Both the position numbers and the translations under genes were made by a program. Positions 24,383 through 49,842 of a DNA stretch of 50,082 nt are shown one piece after another (positions within the stretch are counted from its first letter, which is position 1; each line of letters begins with the position of its first letter). Source of the stretch: Chloroflexota bacterium (lineage in GTDB: Bacteria; Chloroflexota; Dehalococcoidia; SpSt-223); contig JAILZB010000004.1 in assembly GCA_023512725.1 (NCBI GenBank), forward strand, positions 1 to 50,082, given 5' to 3'. Under the pieces are notes generated by a model that had not been told where the DNA came from, made no database searches, and saw only the letters and a list, made by a program, of their open reading frames with translations.

Positions 24383-25573
24383 ATGCGCCGGGTACCTGTT
24401 TCGCGCCTGCGCCCGGGCGATGTGGTTGGGGTCACGATTCGCAACGAACGCGGCGATATTCTCCTGCGCGAGGGGGTGACGCTCACCGCCGAATTGATCG
24501 CTTCGCTACAGCGGCGGCGTCACTTTGCTGTCTACGTGCGGGATGGGATCGTCGATGATGTCATCCCGCACGATATCGTCTCCGAACGGGTACGTGCGGT
24601 CACCATTCGGCACATCAGCGACCTGTTCGAACTGGGGCCATCTCTCAATGGCGAAAGCCAACCCGCGCGCAAGGCGGTCCGGCTGCGGGAGCACCGCATC
24701 CATCGCCTGGTCGAGCGCGTGCGCGCCGATGTCGACCTGATCTTGAATGAAGTGCTCGACCGCGACACTATCACCGGCATCACCGCCCTCAAGAGCTACG
24801 ACGACTACACCTTCAGCCATTCGGTCGACGTGGCGGTGGTGGCGATTCTGATCGGGCGGACCCTGCGTCTGGGCAGGGATGAGCTGAACCAGCTGGCGCT
24901 CGGCTCGCTGCTCCATGATATCGGCAAGATGTTCATCCCGGAGGCGATCCTCAACAAGCCAGGGCCGCTGACCGATGAGGAGATGGCGACAATGCAGTCG
25001 CATACCGTCCGCGGGTTCCAGTACCTGGTCGAGCATGAGATTGGCGACTTTGTGGCGAATCACATCGCCTTCCAGCACCATGAGCGCCAGGATGGTACGG
25101 GCTATCCGCGTGGCCTCCGCGGCACCAATCGGCTGCGGCGCGGGCAGCACGACTGGTTCAACCGCGAGCGGATCCATCCCCTGGCTGAGATCGCCGCCGT
25201 GGCCGATGTCTACTCGGCGCTTGCCTCCGACCGACCGTACCGGGCCGCGATGGCACCCGAGCAGGTGGCAACCGTGATCCGGCAGATGGCCGGTCACCAC
25301 CTTAACCAGGAGGTTGTGGCGGCCTTTGCCCTGACGATCCCGGTCTTTCCGATCGGGGCGCCGGTCCGGCTCGAGGGAGGACGCTACGATGGCTACCAGG
25401 GGGTCGTGGTGGAGAACCGGCCGGGCGCTCTCGATCGCCCGGTCGTGCGGCTGACGAGTGATGCCCAGGGCCACCTTCTCGAACCGGACGACTTCGATAC
25501 TGCCTTCGATCCGGACTGTCGACTGGTCACCCCGCCGGCGTCGCTGGCGGCACCGCTCTCGGCCGTCGGATGA
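24383..25573 (+). CDS. HD-GYP domain cyclic-di-GMP phosphodiesterase
   Basis: HD-GYP proteins hydrolyse c-di-GMP with a two- or three-iron centre. The 396-residue protein has an N-terminal domain of about 60 residues ([20 protein letters not shown] region, like DUF3391), a linker, and the catalytic core with [11 protein letters not shown], the LLHDIGK motif (His178-Asp179), an [10 protein letters not shown] segment, and [11 protein letters not shown] with the GYP signature. A C-terminal SH3-like segment ([20 protein letters not shown]) may bind a partner. All metal and GYP residues are present, so activity is expected. The last 47 bases overlap the oppositely oriented glgX end. Confidence 0.92.
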
Positions 25574-27650
25574 GGATCGCGAGTGAGCGTTCGGCGAGCG
25601 GGTACTGGGCTGCTGTCCACTCCCCGCTCGCCTCGGGGTGCGCGCTATCGGCGAAGCGCTCCCAGTCGCCCGCCACCGCTGGGAGCTGGAAGGAGACCGG
25701 CTCCGCCCCCGAATTCATCAGGACCAGCACGGTATCCCCCGTCACCGGGTCGCCATGCTCATCCAGCTCATTGAGCGATTCGCCAGCGAGCAGCATCCCA
25801 AAGGCGTGCAGGTCGGCGCGGCGCCAGTCGTCGGCCGTCATCTCCTGACCGTCAGGCCGAAGCCAGGTGATATCTTTCGGGTCGCGGCCGTTCGGCGAGC
25901 TGCCGCGGAAGAACGTCTGGCGGCGCAGGACTGGCTGCTGCTGCCGTAGCCGGACTAGCTTCCGGGTCCAGGCCAGCAGCTGTTCCTGCCAGGGTTCCAG
26001 CTCCCAGTCGACCCAGCTGATCGGGTTGTCCTGGCAGTAGGCGTTGTTGTTCCCCTGCTGGGTGCGACCAATCTCGTCGCCCGCCAGGATCATGGGCACA
26101 CCGCTCGAAACGAGCAAGGTCGCCAGAAAGTTCCGCCGCTGGCGCTCGCGCAGCGCCACGATGGCAGGGTCGTCGGTTGGGCCTTCCTGGCCGCAGTTCC
26201 AACTCAGGTTGGAGTCGGTACCGTCGCGGTTTCCCTCGCCGTTGGCCTCGTTGTGCTTCTGGTTGTAGGAGACGAGGTCGGTCAGGGTGAAGCCATCGTG
26301 GCAGGTGACGAAGTTGATCGACGCCCACGGGTGGCGACCGTCAGCCTGGTAGAGGTCACTGGAGCCGGTTAGGCGGTAGCCCATCTCTGGCGCCAGGCCA
26401 GCATCTCCCCGCCACCAGGCCCGCACGCTGTCGCGGTAGCGCCCGTTCCACTCCGCCCAGAGCACCGGGAAGCGCCCGACTTGGTAGCCATCCTCGCCAA
26501 GGTCCCACGGCTCGGCGATCAGCTTCACCCGCGAAACGACCGGGTCCTGATGGATGACATCGAAGAACGAGCCTAAGCGGTCGACATGGTACTCTTCGCG
26601 GGCGAGGGTGCTCGCGAGGTCGAAGCGGAAGCCATCGACGTGCATCTCTTCGACCCAGTAGCGCAGGGAGTCCATGATCAGCTGGAGCACCTGGGGATGG
26701 CGACTATTGAGGGTGTTCCCGCAGCCAGTGTAGTCGAGATAGAAGCGTGGATTCCCCGGCACCAGTCGGTAGTAGGTGGGGTTATCGATGCCGCGAAACG
26801 AAAGGGTCGGCCCCAGGTGGTTGCCTTCCCCGGTGTGGTTGAAGACGACGTCCAGGATCACTTCGATGCCGGCAGCGTGGAGCGCCTTCACCATCTGCTT
26901 GAACTCGCGGACCGGATTGCCCTCCCGACGATTGCAGGCGTAGCGAGCCTCCGGCGTGAAGTAGTTGATGGTGTTGTAGCCCCAGTAGTTGACCAGCCCC
27001 CGCTCGACCAACCAGCGGTCGTCGATGAAGGCATGGACGGGGAGCAGTTCGACCGCCGTGATCCCCAGCTCCTGGAGGTAGCGGATGACCGGCTCGCAGG
27101 CCAGGCCCAGGTAGGTACCGCGGAGCTCCGGCGGGACTGCCGGATGGAGCTTGGTGAACCCCTTGACGTGCAGCTCGTAGATGATCGTCCGGTTCCAGGG
27201 GGTCTCCGGGCGACGATCCTGCCCCCAGTCGAAGGCGGGGTCAATCACGAGCCCCTTCGGAACGGCCGTGGCATCGTCGCGGTCGTCGCGGGTAAGGTCA
27301 TCCCGCCCCCGGGGGTAGCCGAAGACGGGGCCACGCCAGTTGACCTCTCCCTCGAGGGCTCGGGCGTAGGGGTCGATGAGGAGCTTTTGGGGATTGAAGC
27401 GGAGCCCTTGCTGGGGGCAGTAGGGACCGTGGACCCGGTAGCCGTAGCGCTGCCCCGGTCCGATCCCGGGCAGGTAGCTATGCCAGACGTGCCCGGTCCG
27501 CGCAATCAGGGGGAAGCGTCGTTCCTGCTCACCATCGAACAGGCACAGCTCCACCTGCTCCGCGTGCTCGGAGTAGAGCGCGAAGTTCGTTCCGGTGCCA
27601 TCCCAGGTGGCACCGAGGGGGTAGGGTTTTCCGGGCCAGATTGCTCCCAT
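25527..27650 (-). CDS. glgX: Glycogen debranching enzyme GlgX
   Basis: GlgX hydrolyses alpha-1,6 branches of glycogen limit dextrin. The 707-residue GH13 isoamylase-type protein starts with a CBM48-like region ([20 protein letters not shown] read in parts). It contains VIYNHT-type [10 protein letters not shown], the nucleophile Asp in GFRFDLAST, the acid Glu in LIAEPWDLG, and the transition-state Asp in [10 protein letters not shown] followed by [13 protein letters not shown]-terminal beta-domain ends the protein. The length is that of bacterial GlgX. Start ATG 27650. Together with the trehalose genes further right it shows active alpha-glucan turnover. Confidence 0.95.
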
Positions 27651-30794: not shown

Positions 30795-31487
30795 TCAGCT
30801 CTCTAGCGAGCGGGGAACGTCGAGCGAGGGGCCAGCGGGAGTGCTGCGTACCTCGGCGCGGATCGCGCTCTGGAGGAGATGGATGTGCTCAGCCAGGCGC
30901 AGGACCCGCTGGAGGCTATCGGTAATCAGCTCGCGCAGCTCCGGGGAGAGCCCTTCCTGCTCCTCCAGCAGGGAGAGCGAACCGACCGCAAGCTGGATGT
31001 CGTTGTTGATGCGATGGGCGAGCTCACGCGCCGCGAGCAACACCCCTTCCAGACGCGACTGCTGGCGGAGCAGGTCCTCCTGGACCCGCTGGGCGCGTCG
31101 GCGTTCGATGGCATAGCGGGTAGCGCGGAGCAGCGCCGGGCCATTGTACCGCCCCTTGACGAGGTAGTCCTGAGCGCCAGCCTGCACCGAGGCGAGCGCC
31201 AGCTGTTCATCAGCCAGGCCACTCAGCACCAGGATGGGGGTCTCTGGCGTGGCAGCCTGGATGCGGGTGAAGCTCTCCATCCCCTGGCTGTCGGGCAGCG
31301 AAAGATCGAGCAGGACCACATCGAAGGTGTGGTCGACCAGGCGGGCTAATCCCTCGGCGAGGGTGGTGGCGACGTCGAGCTGGAGCCGGGGCAGCAGAGG
31401 GTCGCCATCGCGGACGAGCTCCCGCAGGAGGCGGACGTCGGCCGGGTTGTCTTCGATGAGGAGGATGCGGACCTGCTCTTCGCTCAT
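30795..31487 (-). CDS. Receiver protein with ATPase-less HisKA_2-like domain
   Basis: The 230-residue protein has a receiver domain (residues about 6-125: LLIEDNPADV, phospho-acceptor Asp61 in LLDLSLPD, Lys111 in YLVKGR). After a coiled linker comes a helical pair with RELAHRINNDIQLAVGSL (residues 154-171). The latter matches the H-box pattern of HisKA_2 kinases, whose phospho-His would be His158. No HATPase domain follows; the protein ends about 50 residues later. It may take part in phosphotransfer or dimerise with a kinase. It overlaps the receiver gene before it (ATGA 31484-31487), making it the third gene of the kinase operon. Confidence 0.8.
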   Translation of the reverse strand: MSEEQVRILLIEDNPADVRLLRELVRDGDPLLPRLQLDVATTLAEGLARLVDHTFDVVLLDLSLPDSQGMESFTRIQAATPETPILVLSGLADEQLALASVQAGAQDYLVKGRYNGPALLRATRYAIERRRAQRVQEDLLRQQSRLEGVLLAARELAHRINNDIQLAVGSLSLLEEQEGLSPELRELITDSLQRVLRLAEHIHLLQSAIRAEVRSTPAGPSLDVPRSLES

Positions 31488-31923: not shown

Positions 31924-33720
31924 TCACTCCTGCTCCTCCACTGCGGGTAGCGTGAAGCAAAAGGTCGCGCCAGCGCCGAGCCTCGACTCCACCCAGACCT
32001 GCCCGCCGTGGCGCTCGACAATCCCTTTGACCACCGCCAGCCCCAGCCCGGTCCCATTGTGCTCATTCTGCCCGTGGAGGCGCTGAAAAAGCTCGAAGAT
32101 CCGCTGGTGGTACTCCGGCGCAATCCCGATGCCATTATCGCTCACCCGGAACTCCCACCAGCGACCGGCCCGCTGGGCGCTGATGGTGATCGCGGGCGGG
32201 GCTGCGCTCCGGTACTTGAGGGCATTACTGATCAGGTTCTGGAACACCTGGACGAGCTGGGAGCGGTTGGCGCGGACCGGTGGGAGGGGGGCGCTCTGGA
32301 TGGTGGCGCCCGTCTGGATGATCTGCCGACTGAGGTTGGCGAGCGCCTGGTCGAGCGCCTCGCCACTGGCCACTACCTCCAGCGCCAGCGCCGTACCGAC
32401 CAGCCGGGAGTAGAGCAAGAGGTCGTTGATGAGGCGGCTCATCCGTTCGACCGCGCTCTGGATGTAGTCCAGGAACTCGTCGGCATCGCTCTCGAGCCGG
32501 CCTCGGTAGCGTCGGCTCAGCAACTGGCTGAAGCCCGCGATCGAGCGTAGCGGTTCCTGGAGGTCGTGAGCAGCGACCGAGGCAAACCGCTCCAGCTCGG
32601 CGTTCGCCCGCAGCAGCTCGGCCAGCTGCTGGCGCACCTGCTGCTCGCGCTGGGCGAGCTGACAAGCCATCCACTCCAGCGTCCGCGCAAGCTCGCCGAT
32701 CTCATTGGCGGGGTAGCCAGTCGCCCTGGCCGCGGCAAAATCGCCGGTGGCAATCCGGCGGGTCGCGGCGATCAAGCGTGCGAGAGGGCGGCTGATGAAA
32801 TATCCCACCCCAAGCCAGAGAATTGTCACGCCGGTGGCGGTGGCGAGCGCAAGGAAAGCAAGGTTGCGCTGAAAGCCGCTCGTGGCGAGCGCGTACACCT
32901 CCTCGACCGGCTCGCCCAGCATCAGCACCCCCCCGTTGGTCCACCGCAGCGGGGTGATCGCGTAGAGCCAACGCACGCCGTCTAACCCGGTGGCTTCGAG
33001 GGTGCCACTCCCGAGCGCGAGGGCGCGCTCTGTCAGCGCTTGGTCGCGAACGTTCTGGCCGACGTAGCGGGCTGGATCGGGGTAGCGGTAGGCGACGGTG
33101 CCGGTGGGGTCGAGGATGAGGACGGTCGCCCGAGGAGGAAGCTCCAGCACTTCCTCCGGGGGCTCGAGAGCAGCCGTGGCCACCCAGACGACCAGTGCCC
33201 CAGCCGGGGTACGTTCGCTCGTGCCCAGTGGCAGGACCATCGGCAGGCAGAGGCCACCCTCGAACGTGAATTCGACTGGCCCCACGGCGAAGGTGCCACG
33301 GGCGAGCGCCGCCTGGAACCACGGCTGGCTCTCGGGCGCTGCGCGCACCCCCCACGCGGCCGCACAGAGGACCGTGCCATCCGCCCCGAGCCGGGCGAGC
33401 CCGAGGTACTCCGGCCGGCTAGCGACGACCCGGGTGAGCAGCTCATCGCAGCGGGCGGGGTCCCCAGCGCGCACGTCCTCGCTCAGGGCAAGCAGTTCCA
33501 GCATCTCCCGAATGCTCGCGAGCTGTTGCTCGTGGCGGGCTGCCAGGGCGCGCCCGAGGCGGGTGAGGTCGGTGCGGGCGCCTTCCTCGGCCTGCTGGCG
33601 CTGGACCAGGCCCACTGCGGTGAGGATGCTCACGACTGCCATCTCAGTAACCAGGATGATGAGCAGCACCTGGCGGCGCAGGCTGAGCCAGCCGCTCCCC
33701 CAGCGCCGAGAAGGGCCCAC
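31924..33720 (-). CDS. Membrane sensor histidine kinase (Cache-HAMP-HisKA-HATPase)
   Basis: From GTG 33720 the kinase has 598 residues: a transmembrane span at about 17-39, a roughly 250-residue extracytoplasmic domain with a Cache-like pattern (SQPWFQAALARG and ATVLILDPTGTVAYRYPDP), a second span at 287-309, HAMP at 311-363, and HisKA with His385 in VAAHDLQEPLRSI. The HATPase follows, with an N-box NLISNALKY, DNGIGI and GTGLGLA. The DHp helix (ELERFASVAAHDLQEP) is of the Cph1-like group that pairs with Rcp1-like regulators, which is what follows it. GTG 33720 has GGAG 8 bases upstream; ATG 33816 would overlap the divergent promoter. Confidence 0.92.
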   Translation of the reverse strand: MGPSRRWGSGWLSLRRQVLLIILVTEMAVVSILTAVGLVQRQQAEEGARTDLTRLGRALAARHEQQLASIREMLELLALSEDVRAGDPARCDELLTRVVASRPEYLGLARLGADGTVLCAAAWGVRAAPESQPWFQAALARGTFAVGPVEFTFEGGLCLPMVLPLGTSERTPAGALVVWVATAALEPPEEVLELPPRATVLILDPTGTVAYRYPDPARYVGQNVRDQALTERALALGSGTLEATGLDGVRWLYAITPLRWTNGGVLMLGEPVEEVYALATSGFQRNLAFLALATATGVTILWLGVGYFISRPLARLIAATRRIATGDFAAARATGYPANEIGELARTLEWMACQLAQREQQVRQQLAELLRANAELERFASVAAHDLQEPLRSIAGFSQLLSRRYRGRLESDADEFLDYIQSAVERMSRLINDLLLYSRLVGTALALEVVASGEALDQALANLSRQIIQTGATIQSAPLPPVRANRSQLVQVFQNLISNALKYRSAAPPAITISAQRAGRWWEFRVSDNGIGIAPEYHQRIFELFQRLHGQNEHNGTGLGLAVVKGIVERHGGQVWVESRLGAGATFCFTLPAVEEQE

Positions 33721-33760
33721 CGTGCGCTCTCCGGGTGCGGGTATCACGAACGGTCTCGTA

Positions 33761-33766
33761 ACTATA
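33761..33766 (-). promoter_or_regulatory. Candidate -10 box of the kinase operon
   Basis: TATAGT on the minus strand (complement of 33761-33766) lies 40 bases before GTG 33720. It supports the shorter kinase start. It faces the TATACT of the divergent Kelch gene 36 bases away, so the two transcripts may compete for one control region. Confidence 0.45.
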
Positions 33767-33802
33767 GCATCGGCACCCACGCAGGAGGAAAAGAGCAGGC
33801 TG

Positions 33803-33808
33803 TATACT
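33803..33808 (+). promoter_or_regulatory. -10 box giving a leaderless Kelch-lipoprotein transcript
   Basis: TATACT is followed by only 6 bases (CCAAGC) before ATG 33815, and no purine-rich ribosome site is present. RNA polymerase would start at or within a base or two of the A of the ATG. Confidence 0.5.
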
Positions 33809-33814
33809 CCAAGC

Positions 33815-34816
33815 ATGGCGCTCCTGTCGCGTCGCGCGCTTCTGGCGGCAGCAGCGAGCCTGGCGAGCGTCGCCTGTTTCCGGGAGCTGCCCCGTCCTCC
33901 CGCCCGCCAGGGAGAAGCGCGCTGGAGCCGAGGTGCGAGCGCTCCCTCGGCGCGTTCGGAAGTCGGCGGGGCTGCGATCGGTGGGGAGGTCTACGTTGTG
34001 GGCGGCCTGGGGCGGGACAGCCGCGGCGACTACACTAGCGATGCCCTCGAGGTCTACGACGTCGCAGCGGACCGCTGGTCGCTGGGAGCACCCCTGCCAC
34101 GGCCGCTCCATCACCCGGGGGTGACAGCACTCGACGGCCTGCTCTACGTGGTCGGGGGTTACACCCCTGAGTGGGCGCCGCTGGCGACCGCCTTCCGCTA
34201 CGACCCCGCGACCGACCGCTGGGAGACCTTACCGCCGCTCCCGACCGCCCGCGGGGCCCTGGTGGCCGTCGCAGCGGCTGGCAAGGTCTGGGCGATCGGT
34301 GGACGTGCAGCGGGCGACGTGACTGCCGTGGAAGCGTTCGACCCCCGAGAGGGGACGTGGCGCCGCTTCCAGGCGATGCCAACCCCCCGCGACCACCACG
34401 CTGGTGGCGTGATCGACGAGCGGATCTACGTGGCAGGCGGGCGGTTGGACGGCCGCGGGAACCTCGATGCCTTTGAGGTCTACGACCCCGCGACCGACCG
34501 CTGGGAAACTTTACCGCCGCTCCCGACCGCCCGCAGTGGCATTGCGGCCGCCGTGCTGGGGGGGCGACTGTACGTCTTCGGGGGGGAAGGCGACCGGATC
34601 TTTGGGGAGAACGAGTCCTACCACCCGGCAAGCGGGAGCTGGAGCCGCGAGCTGCCGTTGCCCACACCCCGCCATGGCCTGGCCGCAGCGACCGTGGGCG
34701 AGGCGATCGCCGTCATCGCCGGGGGACCCCAGCCGGGCTATTTTGTCAGCGATATCGTCGAAATCTACTGGCCGGCGAGCCCGGAGCGGGTGTTCCTGCC
34801 GATCACCAACCGCTAG
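33815..34816 (+). CDS. Kelch-repeat lipoprotein
   Basis: The 333-residue protein has a lipoprotein signal with ASVAC (Cys21) after a twin-Arg-containing N-region (LLSRRALLAA), though the RR lacks the full Tat pattern. Six Kelch blades follow, with repeated GGEVYVVGG, GLLYVVGG, GKVWAIGG, ERIYVAGG and GRLYVFGG strands and YDPATDRWETLPPLPTAR turns. A six-bladed beta-propeller on the outer membrane face is expected, possibly binding glycans or proteins. Two blades share almost identical DNA (34198-34252 and 34480-34534). It is divergent from the kinase operon and has a leaderless-type start. Confidence 0.87.
   Translation: MALLSRRALLAAAASLASVACFRELPRPPARQGEARWSRGASAPSARSEVGGAAIGGEVYVVGGLGRDSRGDYTSDALEVYDVAADRWSLGAPLPRPLHHPGVTALDGLLYVVGGYTPEWAPLATAFRYDPATDRWETLPPLPTARGALVAVAAAGKVWAIGGRAAGDVTAVEAFDPREGTWRRFQAMPTPRDHHAGGVIDERIYVAGGRLDGRGNLDAFEVYDPATDRWETLPPLPTARSGIAAAVLGGRLYVFGGEGDRIFGENESYHPASGSWSRELPLPTPRHGLAAATVGEAIAVIAGGPQPGYFVSDIVEIYWPASPERVFLPITNR
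34198..34252 (+). repeat. Kelch blade DNA repeat, copy 1
   Basis: A 55-base segment encoding YDPATDRWETLPPLPTAR recurs at 34480-34534 with two mismatches (GGGAGACC versus GGGAAACT). The other blades of the gene have diverged much further. Confidence 0.9.
34480..34534 (+). repeat. Kelch blade DNA repeat, copy 2
   Basis: The second copy of the 55-base repeat lies 282 bases (94 codons, two Kelch repeats) after the first. It points to a recent duplication or gene conversion. Confidence 0.9.
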
Positions 34817-39617: not shown

Positions 39618-39777
39618 CCTGCGCGCTCGGCGACGCCGTGCCCCCTTCCGCGAGCAACAAGGACTGCTCCCCCGCAGCGTTGGCCATGCGGGTGGCGCGG
39701 GCTTCCCCCGGCTGCCTGCCTAACTGCTACCGTCTGCCCGCTCGCTCCGCTAGCATCGGCGGGAGAAGGGGGCAGTG

Positions 39778-41433
39778 ATGGCAGGCACGTTCCAGGACGG
39801 CTCACCGCTACGGGGCCGGTACTGCCTGGTCAGGCTGGTGAGCAGCGACCCAAGCAGCGATAGCTATCAAGCCGTCGACGGCACGAGCGGGACGACGGCA
39901 CTCGTCCAGGTAGTCCGGCCAGCTGCGACACCGACAGCGGCTGCCCGTGAACGTCTGCTGAATGAGCTGGGGCGGGCGCAGGCCATCACCGTGCCGGCGC
40001 TCTTGCCAGTTCTCCAGGTGGGGGTCGATGATGAGCGAGTGGTGATCGTGCGCCCCTGGCCAGCCGGGGTCTCGCTCGCCGTCCGCCTTGCGGCCGGGCC
40101 AGTGCCGCTCCCGTGGGCGGTCAGCGTGGTACGGGCAGCGCTCCAGGCGGTTCGCGCAGCCGACGCAGCCGGGCTTGCCCACCCAGGGCTGACCCTCGCC
40201 AATATCTTCGCTACCGATGATGGCCAGGTGATGGTCGGCGATGGCGGTCTCCTGTTGCTACCGGCGGCGCGGGTCTTGCCGGCGCTCGCGGATACTGATG
40301 CGGCGGGCACCGCTCCTCGCGCGCCCGAGCTGGCGCCGGGCGAGCGAGCGACCAGTGTTGCCCAGCAGTTTGCGGCCGCGGCGATTGTGACCCGGCTAGT
40401 CAGTGGCCAGTGGCCAGCGCGTGATCCCGCTGCACCCTGGCGATGGTCCCTTCCCCCGGGACTCCCTCCCGCGCTCAGCCGCGCCGTCAGGCGGAGCCTC
40501 GCACTCGCCCCTCACGACCGGGGCAGCCCGGACGCGTTGCTCCAGTCGCTGGCGGCTGCGGGCGCGGCAACCGGGCCAGGGAAACGTCGCGTGCTGCGCT
40601 GGGGCTGGTTGACAGCGGCGGTGCTCGTGGCTGTCGTGTGGGGTGCTGTGCAGATCGCTCGGCTGACTGCAGCGAGCGCGGCCAGTGATGTCCTCCCGGA
40701 AGCGCCAGCCGAGGCCGCCGTGCCGGTGGGAACCCCTACGGTGGCACCGTCCCGAGTGGCTGCGCTGGTCGCCTCCGCTCCGAGCACGGAGGAGGTCCGC
40801 GCGCAGGCTGACCGCTGTTGGGGGGTCGACTGGCCGTGCGCGATCGCCGCGCTTAGCCAGCTGAGCGTCCGTGAGCCCGCTGACTCTGCGCTTCGTGCCC
40901 AGCTGGCAACCGCTTACCTGAACGCTGGGCTTGCCCAGGCCGAGGCCGGGGCGGTGGCTGAAGCGGAAGCGACGTTTGCGGCCGCGCTCGCCATCGACCC
41001 CACCCAGGCGCTCGCGCGGCGCGCCCAGCAGGTAGCCGCGCGCTACCAGGAGGGCGCTCACGCCTACGATCTGGGCGACTGGAGGACAGCCGAAGCGGCG
41101 TTCCGCGAGGTGGTGGCGAGTGGAATGCCATTCGGTCGGGCACGCGAGCTGCTGGCGGCGAGCCTCGTGAATGGGGGAGTGCACGCCTGGCAGGACGGCG
41201 ACTACGCGCACGCGACTGCCCGCTGCGCCGAAGCCAGCCAGGTAGTGGGCGCGCCTGCTGAGCCCTGTCGGGGCGCGCTGGCAGCAGCACCACCTTCAGC
41301 CGGACGGGCAGCACCACCTTCCCGACCCTCCCCCCTCGCGCTTGCACCCCCTCCTCTCCTGACTGCAGCGCCGCCGCCCATCATCATCGTACGCGTGCCG
41401 CCACCGCGCCAGCGTACCGTTTGGCTGCCCTGA
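39778..41433 (+). CDS. Membrane-anchored pseudokinase with TPR-like repeats
   Basis: The 551-residue protein has a Ser/Thr-kinase-like N-terminal domain (about 1-260), one transmembrane span at 273-295, a Pro/Val-rich linker, a helical repeat region at about 345-495 resembling TPR motifs, and a Pro-rich tail. The kinase fold is recognisable from LRGRYCLVRLV and RAPELAPGE (APE motif), but the catalytic parts are lost. The usual VAIK Lys is absent (LVQVV, 42-46), the HRDLKPEN loop is HPGLTLANI (135-143), and DFG is GDG (154-156). It therefore cannot phosphorylate by the normal route and is probably a scaffold or sensor. ATG 39778 follows AAGGGGG. Confidence 0.82.
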   Translation: MAGTFQDGSPLRGRYCLVRLVSSDPSSDSYQAVDGTSGTTALVQVVRPAATPTAAARERLLNELGRAQAITVPALLPVLQVGVDDERVVIVRPWPAGVSLAVRLAAGPVPLPWAVSVVRAALQAVRAADAAGLAHPGLTLANIFATDDGQVMVGDGGLLLLPAARVLPALADTDAAGTAPRAPELAPGERATSVAQQFAAAAIVTRLVSGQWPARDPAAPWRWSLPPGLPPALSRAVRRSLALAPHDRGSPDALLQSLAAAGAATGPGKRRVLRWGWLTAAVLVAVVWGAVQIARLTAASAASDVLPEAPAEAAVPVGTPTVAPSRVAALVASAPSTEEVRAQADRCWGVDWPCAIAALSQLSVREPADSALRAQLATAYLNAGLAQAEAGAVAEAEATFAAALAIDPTQALARRAQQVAARYQEGAHAYDLGDWRTAEAAFREVVASGMPFGRARELLAASLVNGGVHAWQDGDYAHATARCAEASQVVGAPAEPCRGALAAAPPSAGRAAPPSRPSPLALAPPPLLTAAPPPIIIVRVPPPRQRTVWLP

Positions 41434-41919: not shown

Positions 41920-44900
41920 ATGCCCAAGCGACCTGGACTTTCCACCACGGCGGCCGACCCGCTGTGGTACAAGGATGCCATCATCTACGAGGTGTACGTT
42001 CGGGCCTTTCGCGATTCCAACCGCGATGGCACCGGGGACTTCCGTGGCCTGATCTCCAAGCTGGACTATATCCAGGAGCTGGGGGTCACGGCGATCTGGC
42101 TGCTTCCTTTCTTCCCCTCGCCGCTCCGCGACGGCGGCTACGACATTGCGGACTATACCAATGTCAAGCCGGAGTATGGGACGCTGCGCGACGTCCGCCA
42201 GTTCATCGAGGAAGCCCACCGGCGGGGTATCCGGGTGATCTTCGAGCTGGTCGCAAACCACACCTCAGACCAGCACCCCTGGTTTCAGCGCGCGCGCCGG
42301 GCGAAGCCGGGCTCCGTCTGGCGCAACTTCTACGTCTGGAGTGATACCCCCGAGAAGTATCCGGGCGTCCGGATCATCTTCAAGGACTTCGAGACTTCCA
42401 ATTGGGCCTGGGACCCGGTCGCGCAAGCCTATTACTGGCACCGCTTCTACTCCCACCAGCCCGACTTGAACTACGACAATCCGCGGGTCCGCCGCGAAAT
42501 CCAGCGCGTGGTCGACTTCTGGCTCGACCTGGGCGTGGATGGCCTGCGGCTCGATGCGGTGCCCTACCTCTTCGAACGGGAAGGCACCAACTGTGAGAAC
42601 CTGCCCGAGACCCATGCCTTCCTGAAAGCGCTCCGGCGGCACGTGGATGAGAAGTACGGCGACCGGATGCTGCTGGCGGAGGCGAACCAGTGGCCCGAGG
42701 ACGCAGTGGCGTACTTCGGGGAAGGCGATGAGTGCCACATGGCCTTTCACTTCCCCCTGATGCCGCGCCTCTTCATGGCGATCCATCAGGAGGACCGCTT
42801 CCCCATCACTGACATCCTGGAGCGGACGCCACCCATCCCGGAGACGGCGCAGTGGTGCGTGTTTCTGCGCAACCACGATGAGCTGACCCTCGAGATGCTG
42901 ACCGACGAAGAGCGCGACTACATGTACCGGGTGTACGCAGAAGACCCCCAGATGCGTATCAACCTGGGGATCCGGCGCCGCCTCGCCCCCCTCATGCGCA
43001 ACAATCGCCGGCGCATCGAGCTGATGAATGCGCTCCTATTCTCCCTCCTGGGAACGCCGGTGATCTACTACGGCGACGAGATCGGGATGGGCGACAACAT
43101 CTACCTGGGCGACCGGGACGGCGTGCGCACGCCGATGCAGTGGAGCAGCGACCGGAACGCCGGCTTCTCCGAGGCGAACGAACAGCAGCTCTACCTCCCG
43201 GTGATCGTCGACCCGGAGTACCACTACCAGGCCGTGAACGTCGCCGTCCAGCAAAAGAACCCGCAGTCGCTGCTCAACTGGATGAAGCAGATCATTGCCC
43301 TGCGCAAACGCTTCCGGGCCTTCAGCCGGGGCTCGCTCGAGCTGCTCGCGCCAAGCAACCATCGCGTGCTGGCCTTCATCCGGCGCTCCGGCGAGGAGAC
43401 GATCCTGGTGGTGGCGAACCTCTCGCGGTTTGTGCAAGCGGTCAAGCTCGACCTGAGCGCCTACCGTGGGCGCGAGCCCCTCGAGATGTTCGGGGGCAGC
43501 CCCTTCCCGCGGATTGGCGACGAGCCGTACTTCCTGACCCTCGGGCCCCACAGCTTCTACTGGTTCACCTTAGCGACGCCACGGCCGGTCTCGCTCGCCC
43601 CGCTGGGGGGGCAGGATGGCGCTGCTGTGCCGACGGTGCCGGTGCGGAGTCGGACGTCGGAGCTCCTGCGGGAGTTCGGCCCCCAGATTGCCGTCGTCGA
43701 GGCGATCACCCCCTACCTGCTTAAGCACCACTGGTTCGCCCGCAAGCCGCTCGTGCTCCAGTCGGTCCAGTTCCAGGACGCTATCCGCCTTCCGACCGCG
43801 AACGATGAGGCCTACCTCGCGATCGCCCGGCTCAACCCCCGCGAGGGGGATGCGGAGACCTGCCTGATGCCCGTTGGGATTGCACGGGGCGAGGCGGCGC
43901 GCCGACTTCTGGAAGAAGCTCCCCAGCTTGCCATCGCCCGCGTGGTGGGGAGTGAAACGGGTGAGCGTGGGGTGCTCTCCGACGGGCTGGAAGAGGAGGC
44001 GATCCGTCAGGCGCTGCTCGAGGTGGTGCTCCGGGAGCGGCGCCTGCGGGGCCAGGCCGGCGAGCTGGTGGGAACGCTCACCCGGGCTGGGCGGCGTCGC
44101 CTCGCCGGGCAGGAGGTCCACACCTCGCGGCTGGTCTTCGTCGATGCTCGCTACCGGGCAGTGATTGCCGACGATCGACTAGCGCTCAAGATCATCGGCC
44201 GGCCGGAGAGCGGAGTGCATCCGGACCTGGAAGTTTCCGTCCGCCTCCAGGAGCGGGGCTGTCGTGCGCTGGTGCCAGTGCTCGGCTGGGCGGAATACCG
44301 TCGGCCGGAGACCGAACCGCTCGTGGTAGCGATCCTGCGACCAGCGCTGCCGGGCGCAGTCTCGCTGGCGAGCGTGCTCACCGAGCACGTCCGCCGCTTC
44401 CTCCACGACCCGGCTGCCCATGAGTTCGAGGTCCCCGGCCTCACCACTTCGCCTCGTCTCCAGATCGAGGAGGTGCGGCGCGGGGTACCGGCGGCCGCGG
44501 AAGAGGCGCTCGGGCCCGCGCTGGCCCTCGTGCGCCTGGCGGGCAAGCGCTTGGCGGAACTCCACCAGGCGCTGGCGCAGCTGGGCGACGACCCGGCGTT
44601 CGCGCCGGAGCCGTTCAGCGAGCACTACCAGGAGGCGCTCTACTACGGGATGGTCAGTGCGGCTGAGCGGACGTTCTGGCGGATCCGCCAGCTCATCAGC
44701 GACCTCGGCCCCGGCGTGCCGTCCGAGCTGTTCGAGGTGCTGGCCCTGCACCGCCCGATCCACGCCTACTTCCGCCCGATCAAGGCGCAACGCATCGCCG
44801 CGACGCGCATCCGCACCCACGGCGCGCTCGCTCCCGACCTGCTCCTCCTGGTGGACGGCGAGCTCGTGGTGGACGACTTCGAGGGGGACCAGCAGCGACC

Positions 44901-45258
44901 CCTCTCGGAGCGGCGGATCAAGCGCTGCCCGCTCTGGGATGTGGCGACGCTGCTGATCGGGCTGCATACGCTCTCGTTCGCAGGCCTCGGCGATGGCCGC
45001 CGCTTCGAAGAGGAGGTCATCACCCTCGAGCCGCTTGCCCGCTACTGGCGGCACTGGCTGCAGGTCGGCCTAGTGCAGGCCTACTTGACAGAGGCGGAGC
45101 CAGGCGGACTGCTGCCTACGGACCCGAGTAGCCTCCAGGCGCTGCTGGATACCTTCTTGCTCGAGCGGGCGATGGGCGAACTGCGGACGCTGCTCCGCAA
45201 CCAGCCCGAGCGGGTGATTGCTCCCGCCCGCGCGATCCTGGAACTGGTCGGCGGCTAA
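41920..45258 (+). CDS. treS: Trehalose synthase-maltokinase fusion with degenerate kinase loop
   Basis: TreS interconverts maltose and trehalose, and the fused maltokinase would phosphorylate maltose to feed GlgE. The 1112-residue chain has the GH13 TreS domain (1-~555): ELVANHTSDQHPWF, Asp212 in GLRLDAVP, Glu254 in LLAEANQW, Asp320 in RNHDELTLEM, all intact. The C-terminal region (~575-1112) is maltokinase-like, with the nucleotide Lys757 in LALKIIGR and DDFEGD (Asp986). However, the usual HGDxHLGQ catalytic loop reads HGALAPDL, with Ala969 in place of the catalytic Asp. The maltose kinase is therefore likely inactive or regulatory. ATG 41920 is chosen; the stop overlaps the convergent kinase gene by 3 bases. 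Confidence 0.93.
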   Translation: MPKRPGLSTTAADPLWYKDAIIYEVYVRAFRDSNRDGTGDFRGLISKLDYIQELGVTAIWLLPFFPSPLRDGGYDIADYTNVKPEYGTLRDVRQFIEEAHRRGIRVIFELVANHTSDQHPWFQRARRAKPGSVWRNFYVWSDTPEKYPGVRIIFKDFETSNWAWDPVAQAYYWHRFYSHQPDLNYDNPRVRREIQRVVDFWLDLGVDGLRLDAVPYLFEREGTNCENLPETHAFLKALRRHVDEKYGDRMLLAEANQWPEDAVAYFGEGDECHMAFHFPLMPRLFMAIHQEDRFPITDILERTPPIPETAQWCVFLRNHDELTLEMLTDEERDYMYRVYAEDPQMRINLGIRRRLAPLMRNNRRRIELMNALLFSLLGTPVIYYGDEIGMGDNIYLGDRDGVRTPMQWSSDRNAGFSEANEQQLYLPVIVDPEYHYQAVNVAVQQKNPQSLLNWMKQIIALRKRFRAFSRGSLELLAPSNHRVLAFIRRSGEETILVVANLSRFVQAVKLDLSAYRGREPLEMFGGSPFPRIGDEPYFLTLGPHSFYWFTLATPRPVSLAPLGGQDGAAVPTVPVRSRTSELLREFGPQIAVVEAITPYLLKHHWFARKPLVLQSVQFQDAIRLPTANDEAYLAIARLNPREGDAETCLMPVGIARGEAARRLLEEAPQLAIARVVGSETGERGVLSDGLEEEAIRQALLEVVLRERRLRGQAGELVGTLTRAGRRRLAGQEVHTSRLVFVDARYRAVIADDRLALKIIGRPESGVHPDLEVSVRLQERGCRALVPVLGWAEYRRPETEPLVVAILRPALPGAVSLASVLTEHVRRFLHDPAAHEFEVPGLTTSPRLQIEEVRRGVPAAAEEALGPALALVRLAGKRLAELHQALAQLGDDPAFAPEPFSEHYQEALYYGMVSAAERTFWRIRQLISDLGPGVPSELFEVLALHRPIHAYFRPIKAQRIAATRIRTHGALAPDLLLLVDGELVVDDFEGDQQRPLSERRIKRCPLWDVATLLIGLHTLSFAGLGDGRRFEEEVITLEPLARYWRHWLQVGLVQAYLTEAEPGGLLPTDPSSLQALLDTFLLERAMGELRTLLRNQPERVIAPARAILELVGG

Positions 45259-46727
45259 ACGCGTGCGCTCTCGACGACGGCTGGGGTCTCGGCCATGGCA
45301 GGCGAGAGTGGGGAGGGAGCAACCGGCTTCCCTTCGAGGGGGAGCAGGATCGTGAAGGTGGAGCCTTTGCCGTACTCGCTTTCGACGCTGACCTGGCCGC
45401 CGTGCGCCTCGACCAGGTACTTGACGATGGCGAGCCCCAACCCCGCCCCGGAGGAGCCGCGGGGCCCGGCCTTCTGGACGCGGTAGAACCGTTTCCAGAT
45501 GTGAGGCAGGTGGGCAGGGGGGATCCCCTCGCCGGTATCGCTCACGGTAATGCACGCCATCTCGCCCGACCGGTCGAGGCGGACGGTGATCGTCCCCCCG
45601 GCCGGCGTGAACTTGAGGGCGTTATCGAGCAGGTTTGTCACGACCTGGGCGAGCCGGCCCTCGTCGCCCAGCACTTGCAGCGGCTCGGCGACCTCGAGGA
45701 GCAGACGCTGGCCGTTCGCGCGCTGCTGGGCTTCCCGGACCACGCGGGCGAGCAGCTCCTTCAGCCGGACAGGCGTCCGCTCGATGACAAGACCAGCCTC
45801 TGCTCGTGCCAACACCAGCAGGTCGCCGACCAGGCGGCTCAGCCGCTCCACCTGGTGGCGGGCTTCCAGGATGCACTCGGCGCGCTCGCGTGGGTCGGGC
45901 AGGCGGTCGAGCAGCTCGAGGTTGGTGCGGAGTGCCAGCAAGGGGTTGCGGAGTTCGTGGGAGGTATCGGCCACGAACTCGCGGTGCATGCGGAGCGTCT
46001 CTTCCACCGTCAGCAGCAGGTGGTTGATCGTCCGGGCAAGCTCTCCCACTTCATCCGAGTTGGTGGCCGGGCGCAAGCGCTGGCTGAAGTCGCGCCCGGC
46101 CGCGATCTGGGTCGCCTGGTGGGCGAAGGCCTTCAGCGGGGAGAGGCCCTGGAGGGCAACAAACCAGCCGACCACGCCGGAAACGGCAACCGCCGCGGCT
46201 CCGAGGACGATCAGCAAGGTGCGCAAGTTTTCGATGAGGTCGAAGAGCGGTTGCCGCGACTGGCCGACGACCATCACCCCGATGACCGAACCGGTGGCCC
46301 CGTTGGAGCGGATCGGCACCGTGAGAATGCGGATGGGGCGGCCACCGAAGTCGTAGTTCTCGGCCAGGTCGGAGCGTCCGTTCAGAGCAGCCTGGAAGGA
46401 AGCGCTATCGACGGAGATATGCTGGCCGTTGAGCGTCTCCGAGGCGGCGACCACCGCGCCGCTCGGGTCCATCACCTGGACGAAGATCCCGGGGGCGTCG
46501 AGAGAGGAGAGCGGCCGCAAGTCCAGGTAGGCCAGGTCGGAGGGGGTCAGCACGATCCCGCGTGGCAGGATAGTCAAGCGAACTTGCTCGGCGCGGATCT
46601 CCAGGCGCCGGTCCATCTCGGCGCCAAGGCTCTGGGCTGCGGTCGCCAGGATCGTGACGCCGAGCACCGCGATCGTGACCACCATCAGGATGCTATAGGT
46701 GAGGGCCAGGCGCAAGCGTAGCGACAC
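45255..46727 (-). CDS. Sensor histidine kinase (HAMP-HisKA-HATPase)
   Basis: The 490-residue kinase has transmembrane spans at about 8-30 and 169-193 with a 138-residue extracytoplasmic domain between them. HAMP lies at 195-248, the HisKA His257 in FVADTSHELRNPL, and HATPase motifs NLLDNALKFTPAGG, DTGEGIPP and GSSGAGLGLAIVK follow. It resembles BaeS/MprB-type kinases that pair with OmpR-family regulators. GTG 46727 is 7 bases after the stop of the OtsA-OtsB-regulator fusion, whose receiver and DNA-binding domains are its obvious partner. What it senses (envelope or osmotic stress is plausible beside trehalose genes) is inference. Confidence 0.92.
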   Translation of the reverse strand: MSLRLRLALTYSILMVVTIAVLGVTILATAAQSLGAEMDRRLEIRAEQVRLTILPRGIVLTPSDLAYLDLRPLSSLDAPGIFVQVMDPSGAVVAASETLNGQHISVDSASFQAALNGRSDLAENYDFGGRPIRILTVPIRSNGATGSVIGVMVVGQSRQPLFDLIENLRTLLIVLGAAAVAVSGVVGWFVALQGLSPLKAFAHQATQIAAGRDFSQRLRPATNSDEVGELARTINHLLLTVEETLRMHREFVADTSHELRNPLLALRTNLELLDRLPDPRERAECILEARHQVERLSRLVGDLLVLARAEAGLVIERTPVRLKELLARVVREAQQRANGQRLLLEVAEPLQVLGDEGRLAQVVTNLLDNALKFTPAGGTITVRLDRSGEMACITVSDTGEGIPPAHLPHIWKRFYRVQKAGPRGSSGAGLGLAIVKYLVEAHGGQVSVESEYGKGSTFTILLPLEGKPVAPSPLSPAMAETPAVVESARV

Positions 46728-46734
46728 CGCCGCC

Positions 46735-49674
46735 TCACTCCTCGCGCAAGGCGTAGCCGTAGCCGCGCACGGTCTGGATCAGGCGGGGATGGTCGTCGGC
46801 TTCGAGCTTCTTGCGCAACTCTTTGATCGCGCTGTCGACATAGCCGACTTCTCCTTCGGCATCGTGCCCCCAGACGTGACGCGAGATCTGCTCGCGGGTC
46901 AGCACCCGGCGGGGATTCCGTAGGAACAGTCGGAGCAGTTCGAACTCGCGGGGCGTCAGCCGGAGCGGATCCCCATCCCGCCGCACTTCGTGGGTCTTCG
47001 GGTCCAGGCTCAGGCCGAGGAACTCCAGCGTGCTCTCTGAGGCCAGCTGCGAGCGTCGCAAGAGGGCCCGCAAGCGCGCCAGCAGTTCATCGAGGGCGAA
47101 CGGTTTGATCAGGTAGTCGTCGGCGCCGCGGTCGAGGCCCGCGATCCGGTCGGGCACGGTGTCGCGCGCCGAGAGGATCAGGATGGGAGTGGTCACCCCG
47201 GCGGCGCGGAGGCGTCGGCAGACCTCCAGCCCACTCAGGTCTGGCAGCATGATGTCGAGGACGATCACATCCGGTGCGAACTGGGTGCTCAGTGCGATCG
47301 CCGCCTCGCCCTCACCCGTTGTGGCCACCTCATAGCCCTCGACGACCAAAGCCCGCCGGAGGGAGTTGAGCACGGCGGGGTCATCGTCGACCACCAGCAC
47401 CCGCGCGGTGGCCGGCCGCGGGCTCGTCTCTTCCGGTTCGATCAGGGCGAGTTCGGGGTCCGCCTGCGAGGCCTCGACCATCGATTTGAGGAGGGCGCGC
47501 GCCTCCGTGAAGTCGCGGAGGCGGGGGGTCTCGCCCTTGAGAGCGGGACCGACCCGGACGGTGAACGCATGGGCAGGGAGGACGGTGAACAGGTCTTCAT
47601 CGGGCAGGTCATCGCCGAGCGCCAGGATGAACTCCCAGCTTCCCTTGGCGAGGAAGTGCAGCCCGGTGAGCCCTTTGTGGACGCCCGCCGTGGCCACTTC
47701 GATCACCTTGTTCGCAAGGGTCACCTGGAAGTGGTACTCCCCGGCGAGGGCGCGGAGTTCGGCAGCGAGTTCATCGGCCAGCTGGTCGGCGAGGGTGGGG
47801 TCGGCGAGGCGGTAGTGCCAGACGAGCGCGCCTTCTTTCTCCTCGATGAAGGTGCCAGGCAGCCGCTCAACGTAGCGCGTCAGGATGGGACGCACTACAT
47901 CCCGCCACTGATTCGCGAGGGGCGCCATGGCCACCCAGTCGCGCCCCCGCTCGCGGATCCAGAGCCCATGTTCGGCAGCCAGGGCAAGGTCCAGTTCCCC
48001 AAACCAGTACTCCAGGTCGTGGCGGCTGCGGCCGCTCACGATGACCACTTCGTTCCGTGGGTCGGCGCAGAGATTGGCGAGGATGCTCAGCAGCTCGGCA
48101 TCGGGCCAGGCGCGCCCCGGCGTATCCGCAAAGGGGACGAGGGTGCCGTCGTAGTCGAGGAACAACAGGCGGCGCTTCGCCTTCCGGTACGCTTCGATCA
48201 AGGCCTCGCTGGGCTGGAACTCGTAGTCGGCGCGTTGAAGAGCTTCAGCACACTTGCGCGCAGCGATGATGCCGGCAACGAAGCTGCTCCCCCAGCGGAC
48301 GACATCGTTCTCTTGGATGTGCCGGCGCATATTGGCGTTGCGAACGGCCTGCTCTTCGGGGGACATCTCGAGAGCGCGCTTGATCGCGCGTGCCACTTCC
48401 TGCTCATCGTTGGGGTTGACGATGATCGCCCCCGTCAGCTCGGCGGCGGCCCCGGCCATCTCGCTCAGGATCAGCACCCCGCTATTGTCCGGCCGGCTGG
48501 CGATGTACTCCTTCGAGACGAGGTTCATGCCGTCGCGCAGTGGGGTGACCAGTGCGATATCGGCGACGCTGTAGAGTGCCACCAGCGCCTCGAAGGGCAC
48601 CCCGCGGTACTGGTAGAGGATCGGTGTCCACCCGAGGGTGCCGAACTCGCCGTTGATCCGGCTGACGAGCTGCTCGATCTGGAGCTTGAGCTCGGCGTAG
48701 CCGCTCACGACATCGCGCGAGGGGACCACCACTAAGACGAGCACGATCCGGCCGTGCCACTGGGGGTTCTCGGCCAGGAAGGTGCGGTAGGCGGCCAGGC
48801 GGTTGAGGATGCCCTTGGTGTAGTCTAACCGGTCGAGGGAGAGGATGATCTTGCGGTCGCCTAATAAGGCGAGCAGCTCCTGGCGCTCGCGCTCGACGGC
48901 CTCATCGCGGGTCGCATCCTCGAACTTCCGAAAGTTGATGCCAATCGGGAAGGTGCCGACCTGCAACACCCGGTTCTCGATGTGCAGGCGGCCACCATCC
49001 TCGCCAACGCCCAGGATCCGTTCCACCGCTTCCAGGAAGTTCTCCGCGTAGCTCTGGTTGTGGAAGCCGACCAGATCGGCGCCAAGCATGCCTTCGAGGA
49101 TGCTGCGGCGCCACTCGTTCGGGAGCAGGCGGAAGACATCCACCGAGGGGAAGGGAATGTGCAGGAAGAAGCCAATCGCCAGGCGCGGAAAGCGCTCGCG
49201 GAGCATCGCCGGGAGTAGGAGCAGCTGGTAGTCGTGGACCCAGACGATATCATCCGGCCGGACGACCTCCAACACCGCGGTCCGGAACAGCTCGTTGATC
49301 GCGCGGTACTCCTCCCACTGCTGGTCGTCGAAGGTCGCCTGGGAAGAGAAGTAGTGGAAGAGTGGCCAGATCGTGGAGTTGCAGAAGCCGAAGTAGAACG
49401 AATCGATCTGCTTCTGCGTGAGAAAGACGGGGACAGCGTTGAAATCATCGCGGGCCTGCCGCCGCAACGCTTCGCGTTCGGTCGCCTGGTCGATCGCTGC
49501 GCCTGGCCAGCCGATCCAGAGATGGTCCGAGAACTCACTGGACGAAGACCCGAGCACTTCCAGATAGGTCCGCATCCCGGAAGCCAGGCCGCCATCGCTC
49601 GGCTGGATGGTGAAGCCTCCCTTCTCCTGGCGGACGCTGAATGGCAATCGATTGGAGACGATCACCAAGCGCAT
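46735..49674 (-). CDS. otsA-otsB: Trehalose-6-P synthase, trehalose-6-P phosphatase and OmpR-type response regulator in one chain
   Basis: The 979-residue protein carries three complete units. OtsA (1-~480, GT20): SNRLPFSV, HDYQ (147-150), LDRLDYTKGI (280-289) and RDGMNLVSKEY (380-390), the sugar-nucleotide and phosphate ligands. OtsB (501-~733, HAD): nucleophile motif DYDGT (507-511), VIVSGR, and metal motif GDDLPDED (687-694). After a linker of about 23 residues, an OmpR/PhoB regulator: receiver from 757 with phospho-acceptor Asp807 in VLDIMLPD and Lys857, and a winged helix at ~882-977 ending with VRGYGYALREE. No stop or convincing internal start separates the units. All catalytic and phosphorylation residues are present, so all three activities are plausible. 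It is the first gene of an operon with the kinase that follows. Confidence 0.92.
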   Translation of the reverse strand: MRLVIVSNRLPFSVRQEKGGFTIQPSDGGLASGMRTYLEVLGSSSSEFSDHLWIGWPGAAIDQATEREALRRQARDDFNAVPVFLTQKQIDSFYFGFCNSTIWPLFHYFSSQATFDDQQWEEYRAINELFRTAVLEVVRPDDIVWVHDYQLLLLPAMLRERFPRLAIGFFLHIPFPSVDVFRLLPNEWRRSILEGMLGADLVGFHNQSYAENFLEAVERILGVGEDGGRLHIENRVLQVGTFPIGINFRKFEDATRDEAVERERQELLALLGDRKIILSLDRLDYTKGILNRLAAYRTFLAENPQWHGRIVLVLVVVPSRDVVSGYAELKLQIEQLVSRINGEFGTLGWTPILYQYRGVPFEALVALYSVADIALVTPLRDGMNLVSKEYIASRPDNSGVLILSEMAGAAAELTGAIIVNPNDEQEVARAIKRALEMSPEEQAVRNANMRRHIQENDVVRWGSSFVAGIIAARKCAEALQRADYEFQPSEALIEAYRKAKRRLLFLDYDGTLVPFADTPGRAWPDAELLSILANLCADPRNEVVIVSGRSRHDLEYWFGELDLALAAEHGLWIRERGRDWVAMAPLANQWRDVVRPILTRYVERLPGTFIEEKEGALVWHYRLADPTLADQLADELAAELRALAGEYHFQVTLANKVIEVATAGVHKGLTGLHFLAKGSWEFILALGDDLPDEDLFTVLPAHAFTVRVGPALKGETPRLRDFTEARALLKSMVEASQADPELALIEPEETSPRPATARVLVVDDDPAVLNSLRRALVVEGYEVATTGEGEAAIALSTQFAPDVIVLDIMLPDLSGLEVCRRLRAAGVTTPILILSARDTVPDRIAGLDRGADDYLIKPFALDELLARLRALLRRSQLASESTLEFLGLSLDPKTHEVRRDGDPLRLTPREFELLRLFLRNPRRVLTREQISRHVWGHDAEGEVGYVDSAIKELRKKLEADDHPRLIQTVRGYGYALREE

Positions 49675-49842
49675 GGATGCACCTTCCGCTCACCCGGGCA
49701 AGCGGCATGCCCGCCCTCTCTGAAGAATACCGCGAAAAAGCCTAGCCGAGATAGCGGCCCTGGAGGATGACGAAACGATGAGGATTGTGCCGGCCTCCGT
49801 GACAGCTCGTCCCGCACCAGGAACTCTCAGGAGGAGAGCACG

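Follow-up and report, generated by a model that had tools for sequence, protein, structure and literature searches.

A single open frame in an uncultured member of the Dehalococcoidia encodes what its sequence identifies as a bifunctional OtsA-OtsB enzyme joined through a flexible linker to a complete and probably working OmpR/PhoB response regulator, and the gene of a membrane sensor kinase lies directly downstream. Trehalose is a stress sugar and compatible solute, and OtsA and OtsB are the two enzymes of its synthesis; enzymes fused to transcription factors are already known, and so are response regulators whose output is enzymatic. What sets this protein apart is a full receiver and winged-helix regulator, with its kinase, placed behind two consecutive biosynthetic enzymes of the same pathway, which was unseen elsewhere in the sequences and papers searched. 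The reading favored in this work, with a probability of about 0.55, is that of a kinase-controlled fusion of enzyme and transcription factor that regulates its own operon.

Domain composition of the fused gene

The window, meaning the whole stretch of DNA analyzed, comprises 50,082 nucleotides, and the fused gene occupies positions 46735–49674 (–), whose translation gave 979 codons with no internal stop. Four Pfam domains were recognized on this strand, each matched far above its curated cut-off. The first is the OtsA domain, a GT20 trehalose-6-phosphate synthase (48274–49671, residues 2–467; PF00982 Glyco_transf_20, E 3e-155), which carries both the UDP-glucose-site motif SLDRLDYTKG and PLRDGMNL and aligns with solved trehalose-6-phosphate synthase structures, including 5hvm and 1uqt; the enzyme part superposes on a solved synthase with a Foldseek TM of 0.93 normalized to the target, 5hut. 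The second is the OtsB domain, a HAD-type trehalose-6-phosphate phosphatase (47569–48162, residues 505–702; PF02358 Trehalose_PPase, E 6e-47), in which the motifs LDYDGTL, SGR, HKG and GDD are all present and which was aligned with the phosphatase structures 5dxi and 5dxl. Residues 1–735 correspond to the whole of NCBIfam PRK14501, the bifunctional OtsA/OtsB family, at 954 bits against a cut-off of 634.

Beyond a fast-evolving interdomain linker, predicted to be disordered, at about residues 744–757 (47404–47445), the chain continues with a receiver domain (47071–47400, residues 759–868; PF00072 Response_reg, E 2e-30) and an OmpR/PhoB winged-helix DNA-binding domain (46747–46974, residues 901–976; PF00486 Trans_reg_C, E 6e-26), which together align end to end with the solved DNA-binding regulators PhoP (3r0j, 9ji3) and PrrA (1ys6). 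The acidic pocket D763–D765, the phospho-acceptor D807, S835 and K857 of the receiver are invariant in all three fused proteins found. An earlier note, made from the sequence alone, had described OtsA, OtsB and a full OmpR/PhoB regulator in one frame with the catalytic, phospho-acceptor and winged-helix residues in place; the open translation and the four domains bear out this description, and the residues concerned are either matched in solved relatives or unchanged across the fused proteins. Its mention of a "sigma-70-type DNA-binding output" was right as to a DNA-binding domain and loosely worded as to the type, which is the OmpR/PhoB winged helix.

The AlphaFold model of the fused protein (mean pLDDT 81.9, pTM 0.54) presented well-predicted enzyme domains, a less well-predicted regulator and a disordered stretch between them, with pLDDT below 50 at residues 744–755. 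Given this disordered linker and the low pTM, no docking of the domains is indicated in the model, and a linker predicted to be of this kind is as would be expected of domains that work independently.

Conservation of the fusion within the genus

Carriers of the fusion were restricted to three genomes from one genus of uncultured Dehalococcoidia, Dehalococcoidia bacterium KatS3mg060 (G002) being one of the two besides that of the window. In these two other species the protein again has 979 residues and is 82% and 81% identical, aligning over 979 columns without a gap, and all four domains were recognized in each of the three proteins. The occurrence of the same frame in two other genomes ruled out an assembly or frameshift artefact, and its retention in all three species examined indicates that the fusion is real. 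The earlier note would have regarded the fusion as refuted if independent sequence had shown a stop or frameshift between residues ~733 and ~757; both other species were inspected there, and in both the frame is open across the junction.

The three-species comparison revealed a dS of about 1, with synonymous sites near saturation, whereas dN was 0.04–0.20 in the Pfam domains and dN/dS roughly 0.03–0.25 in OtsA, OtsB, the receiver and the winged helix. The low dN despite near-saturated dS means that every domain is constrained, so that, judging from these substitution rates, enzymes and regulator are all maintained under purifying selection. In the stretch 732–757, amino acid identity fell to 38–73% and dN rose to 0.28–0.69, and the frame was never lost.

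Adjacent kinase, treS and other genes of the window

The membrane sensor histidine kinase gene (45255–46727 (–), 490 aa) begins 7 bases after the stop of the fused gene and is complete, with HAMP, HisKA and HATPase_c domains, in agreement with the cognate-looking kinase reported there in the earlier note. A kinase frame lies directly downstream of the fusion in all three species. The one of KatS3mg060 runs in a single frame to about residue 421 and then in another, which indicates a frameshift near the end of the gene, arisen either from an error in the sequence or from decay.

Past the kinase, and convergent with it, is a gene encoding TreS with a maltokinase-like part fused at its C-terminus (41920–45258 (+), with ATG 41920 as the likely start), which scored above the cut-off of NCBIfam TIGR02456 and matched TIGR02457 at E 2.5e-77, yet below the cut-off of that family. 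Its position is kept in both other species, at 71–73% identity. Beside treS, positions 39775–41433 (+) encode a 552-aa protein with no Pfam match at E 1e-5, which is conserved at about 41% in the same place in both other species. An isoamylase-like gene with CBM48 and alpha-amylase domains (25527–27650 (–)) is also found in the window, where glycogen or alpha-glucan metabolism may therefore be encoded as well, and a second receiver-containing gene (30795–31487 (–)) is placed downstream of another membrane histidine kinase gene (31924–33816 (–)).

Rarity and origin of the fusion

No second fusion was found in about 1,740 genome searches over overlapping samples from four phyla (393 genomes of the class, 400 of Chloroflexota, 296 of Bacteroidota, 247 of Spirochaetota and 296 of Actinomycetota), nor in a GTDB-wide scan by two peptide patterns only, for which 32 loci were listed. 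The genome sets being samples, these searches demonstrate rarity rather than uniqueness. The OtsA-OtsB-REC-Trans_reg_C architecture, which the earlier note had suggested looking for in related genomes, was present in the genus and absent from the other genomes searched. Overlong OtsA-OtsB frames in three genomes (G473, G1426 and G1552) were discarded as further fusions, since they have upstream or tail extensions in which no receiver was visible by eye. A search of the open-access literature found no relevant paper on this architecture.

The nearest OtsA-OtsB proteins outside the genus are 50–52% identical and end at about residue 735, before any regulator. The regulator-kinase pairs that come nearest outside the genus stand free; in the one of G026 the regulator is 56% and the kinase 45% identical, and G022 and G008 have comparable ones. 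Such pairs suggest that the regulator of the fused protein and its kinase descend from a pair, and the two sets of relatives together point to otsAB having been joined to the front of a two-component operon that already existed. In the simplest history, as the sequences suggest it, otsAB would have come to lie before the regulator-kinase pair and the stop between them would have been lost in the ancestor of the genus. KatS3mg060 also contains a free-standing regulator (contig C8, 2408–3079 of locus L101) that shares 64% identity with the fused one. No kinase was recognized in the 6 kb next to it, and this regulator is possibly a duplicate of the regulator part of the fusion.

A rival reading is a joint devoid of function in its own right, in which the otsAB stop beside a regulator-kinase operon was simply lost, the regulator serves other genes and the enzymes are ordinary ones, their common chain being a matter of stoichiometry or close to neutral. 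This is the best placed of the alternatives, although still an unlikely one: the ancestral parts exist separately, the linker is disordered and poorly conserved and domain docking left no sign, whereas the fusion has stayed unbroken in three species whose synonymous sites have diverged almost to saturation, even if harmless fusions can persist neutrally.

Possible coupling of the enzyme and regulator parts

The earlier note had also suggested that the kinase could control trehalose synthesis allosterically, that substrate or flux could alter DNA binding, or that the enzymes could be held at the DNA. The first two are possible, with no sign of coupling between enzyme and regulator parts in the sequence or in the AlphaFold model, and the third is likewise conjectural. 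In the first case, phosphorylation of the receiver by the membrane kinase would directly raise or lower the trehalose-6-phosphate synthase or phosphatase activity. An intact receiver and kinase are consistent with such a switch, and fast control would be sensible for a stress solute; even so, it is rather improbable, given that a full winged-helix output has been kept under purifying selection and that domain contact is not indicated at a pTM of 0.54. In the second case, following the logic of trigger enzymes, glucose-6-phosphate, UDP-glucose or trehalose-6-phosphate bound to OtsA or OtsB would alter dimerization or DNA binding. There are precedents for this in PutA and NadR (PMC8249747) and in NnaR, whose winged helix is of the same type and follows an enzyme-like domain (PMC6277429, PMC11162112), but the fused protein has retained a kinase input of its own and neither sequence nor model shows anything that couples the parts, which makes gating by metabolites somewhat less probable still.

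Translation start, upstream region and candidate regulator box

The start of the fused gene is preceded by a Shine-Dalgarno-like GGAAGGTG (49680–49687 (–)), which the upstream alignment revealed to be conserved in the three species in the forms GGAAGGTG/GGAAGGAG. This bears on whether one gene yields two products, the regulator being made also, or mainly, as a separate protein from an internal start at M732 (ATG, 47481–47479) or by proteolysis in the linker. All three fused proteins have M732 just before the linker, which is itself predicted to be disordered; however, unlike the gene start, the ATG of M732 has no conserved Shine-Dalgarno sequence before it. In place of the GTG at residue 759, the two other species have ATC, which is not a start codon. 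The sequences thus do not signal an internal start for a free regulator, and two products appear about as doubtful as gating by metabolites.

Regulators of the OmpR/PhoB family, such as PhoB and PhoP, usually target tandem direct repeats with an 11-bp period. The fused gene has one such repeat, the candidate regulator box CTCATC-N5-GTCATC (49766–49782 (–)), about 108 bases upstream of the ATG, and a tandem TCATC repeat with a period of 10–11 bp is found in all three fusion promoters, about 107–113 bases before the ATG. It reads CTCATC-N5-CTCATC in KatS3mg060, at nearly the same distance as in the window, and CTCATC-N4-CTCATC, with a 10-bp period and about 6 bases further upstream, in the other species (G001). 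Apart from this repeat, little is conserved in the three upstream regions except near the gene start and in a GCGGTATYCTT stretch (49723–49733 (–)), which is kept in all three species between the repeat and the ATG and may be the –10 region of a promoter. No sigma-70 consensus promoter was found upstream of the fused gene.

TCATC was the sole 5-mer repeated at 10–11 bp in all three promoters, and none of 3000 dinucleotide-shuffled sets had any such 5-mer, in a test that ignores the relatedness of the species, the three promoters being near background identity. Genome-wide, the exact 11-bp pattern has two matches in the genome of the window (G000, 4.08 Mb), five in G001 and one in KatS3mg060, and those that are not in the fusion promoters all lie within open frames longer than 120 codons; the 10-bp form occurs two, four (including the fusion promoter) and zero times, respectively. 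No box was seen before treS, and no TCATC tandem repeat was found upstream of related unfused regulators. Since the pattern was picked once the promoters had been inspected, and the species share ancestry, the case is less strong than it may seem; the repeat is nevertheless a plausible candidate, from its sequence and placement, for an autoregulatory box in the operon's own promoter, and it is the one piece of regulatory evidence that emerged.

Proposed working of the fusion

In the favored reading, a kinase-controlled enzyme and transcription factor in one chain, the neighboring kinase would phosphorylate D807 of the receiver and the phosphorylated regulator part would dimerize, so that its winged helices could bind the 11-bp direct repeat in the promoter of their own operon. 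Binding there would set, with a sign that we infer along with the autoregulation, the amount of the enzyme-regulator-kinase set that is made. The enzymes would be carried along with the regulator at a fixed ratio, since enzyme and regulator form one chain and each copy of the enzyme made is also a copy of the regulator. The most elaborate version, a trehalose-making, kinase-signaled and self-regulating trigger enzyme coupled in both directions, in which phosphorylation tunes activity and occupancy by substrate or product tunes DNA binding, is the least probable of all the readings considered.

If the parts were coupled, signal transduction, transcription and compatible-solute synthesis would be brought together in a single molecule, and a coupling of phosphorylation with catalysis, or of metabolites with DNA binding, would be the remarkable outcome. 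Moreover, the survival of unfused relatives of both halves in related bacteria makes this protein a compact and testable case of the merging of enzyme and regulator.

Comparison with known systems

Residues 1–735 of the fused protein resemble the PRK14501-type bifunctional OtsA-OtsB enzymes, with the same domain order, but every other member examined terminates near residue 735 and lacks a regulator, whereas the fused protein continues. From the receiver onward, it is alike to the regulators of the PhoP/PrrA/PhoB type in its receiver and winged helix, its phosphorylation residues, the kinase downstream and the upstream tandem repeat, the latter a candidate here, and differs from them in about 756 enzyme residues at the N-terminus.

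The earlier note knew of no such arrangement; no other searched genome or paper indeed has it, although nearer precedents exist than was implied, namely NnaR, PutA and NadR. NnaR, an orphan regulator of actinomycetes, is likewise a single chain in which an enzyme-type domain, here HemD-like, is joined to a winged helix of the OmpR/PhoB type (PMC6277429, PMC11162112); the HemD-like domain replaces the receiver, a kinase neighbor is absent (PMC11162112), and in Streptomyces the HemD domain is inactive (PMC6277429). In contrast, the fused protein has a receiver, an adjacent kinase and two enzyme domains with their motifs kept, which places it outside the NnaR family. PutA and NadR each unite a metabolic enzyme and a transcription factor in one polypeptide (PMC8249747), and the fused protein, judged by its sequence, shares with such trigger enzymes the presence of catalytic-type and DNA-binding domains in one chain. 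PutA regulates its own operon, as is proposed for the fused protein; but PutA and NadR respond to metabolites, whereas the input of the fused protein would be a two-component kinase and its pathway that of trehalose synthesis.
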